Virus record (IMG/VR): IMGVR_UViG_3300042475_004124
Coordinates: 46,102-110,101 of that record
Length of the DNA stretch: 64,000 nucleotides
DNA from: a virus
Strand: one strand, 5' to 3'
Each line of letters starts with the position of its first letter. Within the stretch, counting starts at the first letter, position 1. Below the pieces are notes generated by a model, which was given only the letters and a program-made list of their open reading frames with translations, searched no databases and had not been told where the DNA came from. Below are positions 16,829 to 57,558 of the stretch, piece after piece. A program made the position numbers and the translations under genes.

Positions 16829-17526
16829 TTGCTGAGTCCGTTGGCGAAGTTCTGTACGAATTTGTTCCAAGCTCCGTTGTCTTTGTTTACCAAAGGAGCG
16901 TTGTTAAGCTCTAGCATCATTTTTGCCAGCCGTCTTTCCACGTATGCCTTTACGTCTTCCTGAAAAGCCAGCTGATCCTGAATCATGATCTGCATAGCTT
17001 CCGAGGTATCCGCGTTAGATTCCACGTTTGCTGCGTAGTCACCAGGTCCCATATCGGCAACCTTGGCTAGTACTTGCGGAGGCCGGTATAAACCCTGCTC
17101 CTTGCACACTTCTCCAATGTACCTACGGACATCGGAGCCCAGGCGTTCTGGCGTGCTGCTGTCCAGCATGGTCAATTCGGTGATTGCCCAGGCGCATTCA
17201 TAGACATCGGCAATATCAAACACATCGTAGCTTAGCGGAGTACCGTTAAGCACATTTGCCGTGTTCATGAATGTCGATACGTCCGAGTGAACGAGGTCGG
17301 ACGTAAGGGAAGTCCAAAGAGACCAAACTTTGTCTGTACTGATAGCTGGAATATCGGATACCCCGAAACCTTCCTCAATTTCTTGGCGGAAGGCTTCTGG
17401 GTCCATATCAAAGATTTCCTGGCCGTACGAGTCCAAGACCATAACGAGGAGCGTGGTCCCGACGGTATCACGACTGCGCCAGAGTTGCTCATAGGTTTGC
17501 TTAGATGTTACGGATTTTACAGGCAT
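16825..17526 (-). CDS. Hypothetical virion-operon protein
   Basis: 233 residues, soluble and mainly helical, with an acidic central part and a lysine-containing C terminus. The N-terminal third mentions TTLLVMVLDSYGQEIF, a beta-alpha pattern typical of globular domains. ATGA overlap with the downstream gene indicates co-translation. No family is recognised. Context suggests head or internal virion protein. Confidence 0.55.
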   Translation of the reverse strand: MPVKSVTSKQTYEQLWRSRDTVGTTLLVMVLDSYGQEIFDMDPEAFRQEIEEGFGVSDIPAISTDKVWSLWTSLTSDLVHSDVSTFMNTANVLNGTPLSYDVFDIADVYECAWAITELTMLDSSTPERLGSDVRRYIGEVCKEQGLYRPPQVLAKVADMGPGDYAANVESNADTSEAMQIMIQDQLAFQEDVKAYVERRLAKMMLELNNAPLVNKDNGAWNKFVQNFANGLSK

Positions 17527-47953: not shown

Positions 47954-50455
47954 TTGAGCCCACAGACTATTTCCCCAGTTAACACCAACAAGCCCGCAAC
48001 TCAAAAGCACTACACTTACGAGCAGGCCTTAGAAGCTTCTACGGAATACTTTGGAGGCGATGACCTTGCCGCTAGAGTCTTCATCGACAAGTATGCTCTT
48101 CGAGATGGACAGCAGAATCTCCTGGAGGCGACTCCGGAGCACATGCATCGCAGAATTGCCAAAGAGTTTGCCAGAATAGAAGCAGGCAAGTTTGCGAAGC
48201 CCTACACCGAAGACCAGATCTTCGATGCCTTGCACAAGTTCGCAAGAATCGTTCCTCAAGGCAGCCCAATGTACGGCATTGGCAACCCCTATCAGGTCAT
48301 CAGTCTCAGCAACTGCTATGTGCTTCAAAGCCCGGAAGACTCGTATGCCGGAATTTGCCGTGCAGACGAGGAGCTGGTGCAGATCAGCAAGCGTAGAGGA
48401 GGCTGTGGAATCGACTTGGGCACTCTGCGTCCCGAAGGTTCCTTGACCAAGAATGCTGCAAGAACCAGCACCGGTACAATTCCGTTTGCAGAGCGCTTCT
48501 CCAACTCGATTCGCGAGGTTGGTCAAAACGGTCGTCGTGGAGCTCTGATGCTCACGCAGTCCATTCACCATCCCGACGTTGAAAAGTTCATAAAGTGCAA
48601 GAGAGATCTCACAAAGGTAACCGGAGCCAACATTTCGGTGCGCCTCACGGACTCCTTCTTGAATGCCGTTGAGCAGGACCAGGAGTACACTCAGTACTGG
48701 CCAGACGCAGGTAAGGCCAAGGTGGAAGACAAGGTACGGGCTCGAGACATCTGGAACATGCTCATCGAGGCTGCTCACGCAACGGCCGAACCAGGCATGC
48801 TGATGTGGGACAACATCCTCCGGGAAAGCATTCCTGACTGCTATGCAGACCAGGGATTTAAGACTGTATGCACCAATCCGTGCTCGGAGATTCCTTTGTC
48901 GGCATACGACTCCTGCCGACTCATGTTGGTAAACGCCTACTCATATGTGTCCAAGCCGTTTACCAAGGAAGCAAAGTTTGACTTTGATTCCTTCCGGCAG
49001 GACGCATACATGTGCCAGAGACTTATGGACGACATGGTGGATCTGGAGTTGGAGTGCATTGATCGCATTCTCAACAAGATCGCCAACGACCCTGAGGACG
49101 CTGAGCTGAAGACCCGGGAGACCGCACTTTGGATCAAGGTTCGTAATGCCGCTAGAAACGGCCGACGCACCGGCTCCGGACAGACAGCTATTGGCGACAC
49201 CTTGGCAGCCTTGGGCATCGGCTACGGCTCCAAGGAAGGCATCTCCATGATCGATAGCATCTATCGGGAGTTCAAGCTTTCCTGCTATCGGTCCTCTGTA
49301 GACATGGCTAAGGAGCTAGGAGCCTTCCCAATCTACAGCGCAGAAAGAGAGCTGGAGAATCCCTTCCTGCTGCGAATCTCACAGGAGGATCCGAAGCTCT
49401 ATGCCGACATGCAGAAGTACGGCCGACGCAATATCGCACTGCTTACCACTGCTCCGTGCGGCTCGGTGTCGATCCTTACGCAGACCAGTTCGGGCATTGA
49501 GCCGCAGTTCATGATCAAGCCGTACACCCGACGCAAGAAGGGCAATCCTGGCGACAAGAACTTCCGATCTGATTTTGTGGATCAGAATGGAGACCACTGG
49601 ATGGAATTTACGGTATATCCACCCAAGGTCTCTGAGTGGATGCAGATCACCGGAGAGTCCGACCTGGACAAGAGTCCCTGGGCTGGCTCTACTGCACCTG
49701 AGTTGAACTGGGAGGCCCGAGTGGAGCTGCAGGCTACTGCGCAGCGACACATTGACCACGCCATCAGCAGTACGGTAAATCTACCTGCCGATACTACCGT
49801 GGATACGGTAAACCAGATTTACCTCAAGGCTTGGAAGTCTGGCTGCAAGGGCATGACGATCTACAGAGACGGATGCCGTACCGGAGTTCTGGTGGCCAAG
49901 GAGGAAAAGAAGAAGGACGTGAGCTACAAGCGTCCCGAGATCTTGCCTTGCGAGGTGCACCACCACACCGTGGGAGGCGTGCCTTACTTCGTCCTGGTAA
50001 GCACTAGGAATGGAGCTCCTTATGAGATCTTCGCTGGAGTCAATCACAACGAAGACGGAGACTCCATTATCCCCAAGCGATTTAAGGGCGGTACTTTGAC
50101 GAAGATGGCCAGAGGCCACTATAAGGGTGAGTTCATCGACAATAAGAACGAAGGTGAGATCCTCACTCTTAACAGGCTTGGTAATTTGGTGTCCAGCGAA
50201 GAAGGCGCAATTACGAGACTTATCTCTACCGCACTACGCCACGGAGTAGAGATTCACTACATTGTCCATCAGCTGGAAAAGGTCACTGGAGACATGTTCT
50301 CTTTCTCCAAGACCGTTGCCCGCACCTTGAAGAAGTTCATTCCCGACGGAACTGAAGTCAAGGGAGAGACATGCAGCTCGTGTCAGTCGGAAAGTCTGGT
50401 GCGACAGGAAGGGTGCGTTACCTGTAAGTCCTGCGGCAGCAGCAAGTGTGGTTAA
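47954..50455 (+). CDS. nrdJ: Class II (B12-dependent) ribonucleotide reductase
   Basis: 833 residues starting with TTG at 47954, supported by AGGAG nine bases upstream. The family's features are seen in order: SNCYVL near residue 118, the radical-site NPCSE at 308-312, and PCGSVSILTQTSSGIEPQF. A cysteine-rich tail (CSSC, later CVTC and CGSSKC) probably binds zinc and shuttles reducing power. Adenosylcobalamin-dependent enzymes reduce NTPs or NDPs without an oxygen-dependent subunit. It supplies dNTPs along with ThyX. Confidence 0.92.
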   Translation: MSPQTISPVNTNKPATQKHYTYEQALEASTEYFGGDDLAARVFIDKYALRDGQQNLLEATPEHMHRRIAKEFARIEAGKFAKPYTEDQIFDALHKFARIVPQGSPMYGIGNPYQVISLSNCYVLQSPEDSYAGICRADEELVQISKRRGGCGIDLGTLRPEGSLTKNAARTSTGTIPFAERFSNSIREVGQNGRRGALMLTQSIHHPDVEKFIKCKRDLTKVTGANISVRLTDSFLNAVEQDQEYTQYWPDAGKAKVEDKVRARDIWNMLIEAAHATAEPGMLMWDNILRESIPDCYADQGFKTVCTNPCSEIPLSAYDSCRLMLVNAYSYVSKPFTKEAKFDFDSFRQDAYMCQRLMDDMVDLELECIDRILNKIANDPEDAELKTRETALWIKVRNAARNGRRTGSGQTAIGDTLAALGIGYGSKEGISMIDSIYREFKLSCYRSSVDMAKELGAFPIYSAERELENPFLLRISQEDPKLYADMQKYGRRNIALLTTAPCGSVSILTQTSSGIEPQFMIKPYTRRKKGNPGDKNFRSDFVDQNGDHWMEFTVYPPKVSEWMQITGESDLDKSPWAGSTAPELNWEARVELQATAQRHIDHAISSTVNLPADTTVDTVNQIYLKAWKSGCKGMTIYRDGCRTGVLVAKEEKKKDVSYKRPEILPCEVHHHTVGGVPYFVLVSTRNGAPYEIFAGVNHNEDGDSIIPKRFKGGTLTKMARGHYKGEFIDNKNEGEILTLNRLGNLVSSEEGAITRLISTALRHGVEIHYIVHQLEKVTGDMFSFSKTVARTLKKFIPDGTEVKGETCSSCQSESLVRQEGCVTCKSCGSSKCG

Positions 50456-50470: not shown

Positions 50471-50836
50471 ATGAGTAAGTTTGAAGCAGTGTCTACCGGA
50501 AATATCGCAAATACTCCGCTCAAGGCAAATGTCGGAGTTATGAGCCCCACAGAAAAAGCAGCATTTGAGTCGCAGATCACAGACGCTGTAACTCAGGCGC
50601 AGCCGCAAGCAGAATCTGTTTGGGAAACTGTTAGCGAAGAGCGCTGGGCGGACAATCGACTTGGCGAGACGATCGCTAACAAGTTCCAGCGTGTCACTCG
50701 TCGCATGCCTGTCTCTGGTGGATACCTGTACGCAGTGGCCACCTATGCGATGACGTACGTCAGAGGCGTGTCGGATTCCAGCATTACCGAAACAATGCAA
50801 TTCGTGCCAGAGACCGGGGTAAAGTCTAAGAAGTAA
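50471..50836 (+). CDS. Hypothetical protein
   Basis: 121 residues with AAAGGAAAGC upstream. A polar N-terminal half is followed by a hydrophobic SGGYLYAVATYAMTYV stretch that could be a buried helix rather than a membrane segment. No motif recognised. It ends 25 bases before the large regulatory hairpin. Confidence 0.5.
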   Translation: MSKFEAVSTGNIANTPLKANVGVMSPTEKAAFESQITDAVTQAQPQAESVWETVSEERWADNRLGETIANKFQRVTRRMPVSGGYLYAVATYAMTYVRGVSDSSITETMQFVPETGVKSKK

Positions 50837-50861
50837 AGTTGCACTAAATTCATAAATGCGG

Positions 50862-50905
50862 TAAACAGTGGTGTAAGGAGCTAATATGCCTTACACCACT
50901 GTTTA
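50862..50905 (+). promoter_or_regulatory. 17-bp perfect hairpin enclosing ribosome binding site and start codon
   Basis: TAAACAGTGGTGTAAGG (50862-50878) pairs perfectly with its complement at 50889-50905. The 10-base loop AGCTAATATG contains the end of the AAGGAG ribosome binding site and the start codon 50886-50888. In mRNA this would hide the Shine-Dalgarno sequence; in DNA it is a palindrome fit for a dimeric protein. It may also end transcription from upstream. Confidence 0.85.
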
Positions 50906-51323
50906 TTTGCAATACTCTGAAAGTAGAAACGACGACCCGGATTACGACGACGACTCAGACGACGAGAGAGACGAAGACTCCGACGATTTTGACTACGAAG
51001 ATAGCGAAGAACGCTGCTTCATAGAATTTAATCCTATACGGCTTACGGCTAAGGAACCGCGAGGAGACTCTGTGGAACTGGAGCTTGAGTTTGAGGCCGA
51101 GGTTGGAGAAACTCTACACCTAGTAGTTGTTAGATACAACAATCATAGGACTGGCGTCCTAGAAGACTGGTGCGTAGAGCAGGTCTTTAAAAATGGCGAT
51201 GATGCCGAAGAGCTGGTAGAAAGTCTAGAAGACGGCCTAGCCAATGCCGAATGCGCCGAAGATAGACATGGAGAGTCCGTAGTTGTTAAAGCCGAGGTTT
51301 TCAGCATGCAGCTGCATAGGTAA
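50886..51323 (+). CDS. Acidic protein translated from within a hairpin
   Basis: 145 residues. Residues 12-45 are nearly all Asp, Glu, Ser and Tyr (DDDSDDERDEDSDDFDYED), followed by a beta-rich domain and a short helical end. The charge suggests a DNA mimic or chaperone-like protein. The start codon lies in the loop of a 17-bp hairpin, so expression should be tightly controlled, perhaps by its own product. No family recognised. Confidence 0.55.
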   Translation: MPYTTVYLQYSESRNDDPDYDDDSDDERDEDSDDFDYEDSEERCFIEFNPIRLTAKEPRGDSVELELEFEAEVGETLHLVVVRYNNHRTGVLEDWCVEQVFKNGDDAEELVESLEDGLANAECAEDRHGESVVVKAEVFSMQLHR

Positions 51324-57510: not shown

Positions 57511-57558
57511 CCTATCCCGGGACCACCTGCTGATTACAGGTGGTCCCGGGTAGGTTTT
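57511..57558 (+). terminator. Strong rho-independent terminator
   Basis: CCTATCCCGGGACCACCTG (57511-57529) pairs with CAGGTGGTCCCGGGTAGG (57537-57554), with one bulged T, over a CTGATTA-type loop, then TTTTGT. This is the most stable stem-loop in the window and ends the transcript of the preceding gene. Confidence 0.95.

Follow-up and report, generated by a model that had tools for sequence, protein, structure and literature searches.

In phage T4, stems similar to the one described here silence the long transcripts of e, soc, 49, and I-TevI, and for e and I-TevI, late transcripts that lack the 5′ strand of the stem are documented as translated (PMC3014915, PMC2988022). The gene mobE of phage Aeh1, also a late gene, likewise has an inhibitory hairpin at its ribosome-binding site (PMC3014915, PMC2988022). 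The start codon of the MS2 coat gene lies, together with a partial GGAG, inside a hairpin whose stability sets the level of coat synthesis (PMC9894550). The locus that we describe here very probably belongs to this known kind of control, the start-occluding hairpin, in an unusually strong and frozen form.

The window, that is, the whole stretch of DNA analyzed, comprises 64,000 nt of IMGVR_UViG_3300042475_004124, itself a 110,101-bp virus record; a longer contig (G001; 174,569 bp) is 99.999% identical to this record over the whole of the record. The genome is that of a tailed phage, with genes for terminase, DNA polymerase, ribonucleotide reductase, thymidylate synthase, and GroES, and its terminase shares no more than about 29% identity with those of annotated phages among the best matches listed. 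The phages that carry the hairpin are a group of uncultured bacteriophages, mostly from lakes. ARAGORN identified no tRNA in the window; outside it, several tRNA-like sequences lie between small genes at ~145.8–148.4 kb of G001 (reverse-complement coordinates). Genes are closely packed here, and the hairpin is situated at a gap of 49 bp that lies 3′ of the genes for ribonucleotide reductase and for a 121-aa protein (50471–50836, + strand); from the stop codon of the latter gene, it is 25 nt to the 5′ arm and 49 nt to the ATG of the gene that follows. The reductase (47954–50455; 833 aa) shares ~41–47% identity with reductases of huge uncultured phages and crAss-like phages, and several of the reductases that match it are annotated as B12-dependent.

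The gene whose start is enclosed by the hairpin (50886–51323, + strand) encodes a 145-aa protein of no known family. The earlier note on this DNA had called this protein acidic, in agreement with its composition (44 Asp + Glu vs 12 Lys + Arg). The protein has no PHROG, and the window's version of it has no Pfam match; comparison with PDB sequences gave weak matches only, over short stretches, and the structural model (mean pLDDT 62) had no fold match at an E of 0.001 or less. A tblastn search against annotated phages gave no match, and no relative was found in the bacterial genomes searched.

The 5′ arm of the hairpin, TAAACAGTGGTGTAAGG (50862–50878, + strand), lies in the non-coding leader and is conserved in 8 distinct relatives; it is 100% complementary over 17 nt to the 3′ arm, CCTTACACCACTGTTTA (50889–50905, + strand), and the two arms enclose the 10-nt loop AGCTAATATG (50879–50888, + strand). 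The ATG (50886–50888) forms the last three bases of the loop, and hence the 3′ arm consists of codons 2 to 7 of the 145-codon gene (codons 2–6 plus two bases of codon 7, encoding P Y T T V Y), and these codons are frozen. The Shine-Dalgarno sequence AAGGAG (50875–50880, + strand) is divided between stem and loop, with AAGG as the last four bases of the 5′ arm and AG in the loop. These observations agree with the 17-pair perfect stem and the 10-base loop, holding AG of the Shine-Dalgarno and the ATG, that the earlier note had reported; its description of the start codon as “displayed” is true of the ATG only, because most of the Shine-Dalgarno (AAGG) sits inside the 5′ arm.

The hairpin is confirmed and falls far outside what chance would produce. 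Among perfect inverted repeats of the window whose arms are separated by 30 nt or less, it is the longest, and only ~4e-5 perfect stems (17 or more pairs, loop of 3–12 nt) would be expected in 64 kb of the window’s base composition, which bears out the initial estimate of far less than one per 64 kb. Folding of the leader RNA, which had been proposed as a check, gave −33.6 kcal/mol for 91 nt (z = −6.8), with 0 of 200 shuffles equally stable; the computed value for the isolated hairpin is −25.5 kcal/mol. Ranked by stability of the start region, the hairpin gene is first among the 216 called genes of G001, and it ranks 1/120 in G002, 1/65 in G004, and 2/43 in G005. Other inverted repeats were also encountered: a 14-bp perfect repeat with a 7-nt loop (57516–57550 of the window), intergenic and followed within a few bases by TTTT, is probably an ordinary terminator, and a 25-bp perfect hairpin with a 6-nt loop lies where no gene was called in G004 (L064; 7824–7879 of the reversed contig).

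A stem followed by the U-rich TTTATTTG might also act as a transcription attenuator or terminator, stopping polymerase that enters from upstream, and the TTTATTT after the CAGTGGTGTAAGG stem is invariant in all hairpin lineages. We regard this as very improbable, given that most of the U-rich stretch forms pairs with the A-rich foot of the 5′ arm, that it codes for protein (Val/Ile-Tyr-Leu), that a loop of 10–11 nt is long for an intrinsic terminator, and that centering on the ATG would be needless for a terminator; the hairpin was also not listed by the terminator scan, the loop limit of which is 8.

Homologs of the 145-aa protein were collected by searching with the protein, with a profile, and with a further profile limited to the C-terminal part (blind to the hairpin), which together gave 17 contigs. 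The hairpin is present in 13 of them, as 8 distinct sequences, with proteins down to about 42% identical to each other. The four contigs in which it is absent represent two lineages: L085–L087, which are one phage (protein about 45% identical over the full alignment) in which the gene starts 13 nt after the 121-aa homolog, and L088 (protein 29% identical). The protein tree of the family is poorly supported. The earlier note had held that its reading would fail if related phages encoded the gene with no conserved complementarity; complementarity is kept in 13/13 contigs of the close clade and is missing from the four distant contigs, which makes it a clade-specific feature. As judged from these contigs, then, the hairpin is a trait of a single clade. 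L036 has an extra gene between the 121-aa homolog and the hairpin, and the hairpin remains with the 145-aa gene. This inserted gene (L068, reverse strand, ~3690–2373; ~440 codons) has a signal-like start, and it has no counterpart in the relatives whose upstream region was read.

When viral sequences were scanned for the 5′ arm with an ATG, the 3′ arm was found only in the 13 family members among the at least 122 matches listed, and no convincing further copies of the element were found in seven related records. A second gene of like architecture (G002, position 16875; 13-bp stem, 10-nt loop) was rejected because an in-frame start lies 63 nt upstream in G001 and G002 and the stretch reads as conserved coding sequence, which places the stem inside a coding region.

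Within the hairpin clade, variation avoids the stem. Across seven representatives, 3 of the 17 columns in each arm are variable, vs 18/25 just upstream and 13/25 just downstream; the count for the 5′ arm takes in a one-base deletion in L036, where the stem is reduced from 17 to 15 pairs. Codons for invariant residues are free of synonymous change in 4/4 cases in the stem vs 2/31 in the rest of the gene, and a scan tolerant of synonymous substitutions retrieved 13 family members, all with the 5′ arm and with 0 synonymous variants in codons 3–7. The phage of L036 is G+C-rich, and its stem codons ACT, ATT, and TAT each make up 13% of their synonymous class in that phage.

Positions 50866 and 50901 (+ strand) form a pair that is C-G in six sequences and U-A in two: 50866 is C in the window and T in L033 and L036, and its partner is G (Val) in the window and A (Ile) in the same two. 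As 50901 is the first base of codon 6, an amino acid change (Val6-Ile) accompanies the change in the non-coding leader. L035, which is 73% identical to L033, has C-G, and at least two double changes are therefore required on the tree. At each of the two loop-closing pairs, G-C has changed to G-U, in L030 and L078. The 5′ AG and the final ATG of the loop are invariant, its middle varies in sequence and in length (10 nt, or 11 nt in L033/L035), and the 3′ arm begins exactly after the ATG in every hairpin lineage. The formal covariation signal is thin because the arms hardly vary: the score is modest (matched by 21/500 shuffles), with one pair changed on both sides. Taken together, the alignments show that the hairpin has been kept by selection on pairing. 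G-U changes in mid-stem that would be silent are never seen, and conservation beyond the needs of pairing hints at recognition of the sequence as well.

It is this excess of sequence conservation over pairing that keeps a DNA operator under consideration. In such an arrangement, the arms would be half-sites for a dimeric repressor, perhaps the gene’s own product, that blocks transcription across the gene start; in favor of this, the arms are conserved in sequence as well as in pairing, and the genomes searched hold essentially no other such site. We nevertheless consider an operator unlikely. The spacing of the arms is not fixed, and the shift between 10 and 11 nt would rotate the half-sites against each other; perfect 17-bp half-sites kept through a symmetrical double change would be unusual for an operator. 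The G-U type changes at the loop-closing pairs also speak against it, as does the exact alignment of the symmetry with the ATG and Shine-Dalgarno, which holds for every lineage. The product itself is strongly acidic and has no DNA-binding family.

The same sequence freeze, which also exceeds what protein coding needs, together with the unchanging loop 5′ AG and final ATG, would suit an RNA-protein operator or processing site, at which a phage or host protein recognizes the sequence of the stem-loop and sets or relieves a block. Candidates would be RNase III, for which a helix of 17–22 bp is a plausible substrate, or a translational repressor resembling MS2 coat protein or T4 gp43. The middle of the loop is variable in both sequence and length, no partner was identified, and G001 holds no convincing second copy of the motif; we think a dedicated site of this kind quite unlikely. 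A sequence-specific RNA-binding protein or RNase III could also act on top of a hairpin that occludes ribosome binding.

The C-G/U-A change, the G-U closing pairs, the change in loop length, the frozen synonymous sites, and the register with the ATG favor base pairing in RNA. We estimate a probability of about two in three that the hairpin is a cis-acting mRNA structure that occludes ribosome binding at the 145-codon gene. The earlier note had offered “an mRNA switch or a dimeric operator”; of these, a cis-acting mRNA element at the ribosome-binding site is retained and the operator is disfavored, and as regards a switch, the analysis revealed neither a ligand nor a protein partner nor an alternative fold, and no Rfam model (riboswitch, leader, thermometer) matched the window at its gathering threshold.

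On transcripts that arrive from the upstream genes (ribonucleotide reductase and the 121-aa gene), the leader strand would pair with codons 2–7, with four Shine-Dalgarno bases buried in the stem and the AUG confined to a small loop, such that 30S initiation would be blocked or limited to the moment before the 3′ arm is transcribed. We infer that the hairpin lowers translation. The calculated cost of opening 50874–50900 on a long transcript is about 27 kcal/mol, falling to 3.4–7.8 kcal/mol if the 5′ end of the transcript lies at 50872–50876. For a growing RNA, opening of the Shine-Dalgarno and AUG is calculated to cost 1.4 kcal/mol if the RNA ends at the ATG, and 11 kcal/mol for an RNA that extends to 50900 and whose lower stem stays closed. 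By the same physics as in the MS2 and T4 hairpins, the gene would be expected to be silent on read-through RNA, or to be open to initiation only until the 3′ arm has emerged. Translational coupling to the 121-aa gene was considered and rejected, as the stop codon of that gene ends 25 nt before the stem and a terminating ribosome would probably not melt it. A conserved short upstream ORF was likewise rejected: L030, L078, L033, and L035 have not retained the candidates, which are ATGCGGTAA (window) and ATGGGGTAA (L026).

Relief of the block would most likely come from a separate transcript with its 5′ end within that arm of the hairpin, the arrangement of T4 e, soc, 49, and I-TevI; alternatively, initiation could take place on nascent RNA, or the hairpin could be bound by a protein or cleaved. 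Neither a T4-type late promoter (TATAAATA) nor TATAAT was found in the 5′ arm, and a T4-type late promoter regulon was rejected, as TATAAATA is not enriched before genes. TATAAT occurs just upstream of the stem in L036 alone, and also precedes several genes of the structural region. The combination TTGCAY-N17-TAAAYA (TTGCAC-N17-TAAACA at 50839–50867 of the window) is kept in all hairpin lineages except L036; its candidate first half is TTGCAC (50839–50844, + strand), TAAAYA lies at the foot of the 5′ arm, and the spacer between them diverges among relatives. It may be a promoter of a novel type that overlaps the 5′ arm, in which case the transcript would start near 50873–50876; a promoter at this left edge could also be covered by the repressor of a DNA operator. 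The combination precedes no other called gene, and to our knowledge resembles no known promoter.

The motif TGCTATAAT, of the extended −10 type, occurs shortly before several structural-region genes of G001 (L045–L053; 11021, 26497, and 36823, reverse-complement coordinates), with counterparts in G002, which suggests that the phage uses a host holoenzyme of the sigma-70 type. No phage-encoded sigma-70 region 2 scored over the cut-off in G001, G002, or two outgroup phages; a search for a T7-type polymerase gave no match, but the controls gave none either.

More tentatively, and on balance doubtfully, the 44-nt hairpin may be a translational lock recognized sequence-specifically by an undescribed phage factor, which would freeze the leader and the first codons and couple Val6-Ile to a leader base. 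If this is true, release of the lock would amount to a new signal in these phages, specific to a stage or to a stress. Early or unchecked expression of the 145-aa gene is apparently something that the phage cannot afford, and the coupling of a leader base to a protein residue offers a clean case of co-evolution between mRNA structure and protein sequence. Start-occluding hairpins are known mainly from T4-like and RNA phages, and here one is tightly conserved in an uncultured lineage distant in its terminase. New in this case are the near-invariant arms with a coupled amino acid change and the lack of a recognizable release promoter, as well as the phage lineage, the extreme stability, the ATG in the loop, and a 3′ arm that is entirely coding.

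Among the systems compared, the T4 gene 43 operator is likewise a hairpin near a phage start codon that is conserved among relatives (PMC3014915), although it sits some 40 bases 5′ of the start codon, where gp43 binds it, whereas the hairpin of the window encloses the start. The MS2 replicase (RdRp) operator is also a stem-loop with a start codon and a potential target for a repressor (PMC9894550); it is bound by coat protein, whereas the window hairpin has a much longer perfect stem and no known binder. With the MS2 coat initiator, it shares the presence of the start codon and a partial Shine-Dalgarno within one short hairpin; the coat hairpin, however, is 27 nt long and weak enough for translation, whereas that of the window is 44 nt long (−25.5 kcal/mol), belongs to a double-stranded-DNA phage, and at a calculated ~27 kcal/mol to open on a long transcript would be too stable for equilibrium translation. 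The features in common with T4 e, soc, 49, and I-TevI are a DNA phage, a gene downstream of others, a stable stem that buries the Shine-Dalgarno and/or AUG, a stem that truncation of the 5′ arm would open (as calculated here), and maintenance of the stem by selection in related phages. In the T4 type, the 5′ arm contains or adjoins a late promoter, whereas at the window hairpin no known promoter motif was recognized, TTGCAC-N17-TAAACA being at most a candidate; and unlike the T4 type, the window hairpin has its AUG in the loop, its 3′ arm is wholly coding, and its sequence has stayed frozen between lineages whose proteins are as little as about 42% identical.
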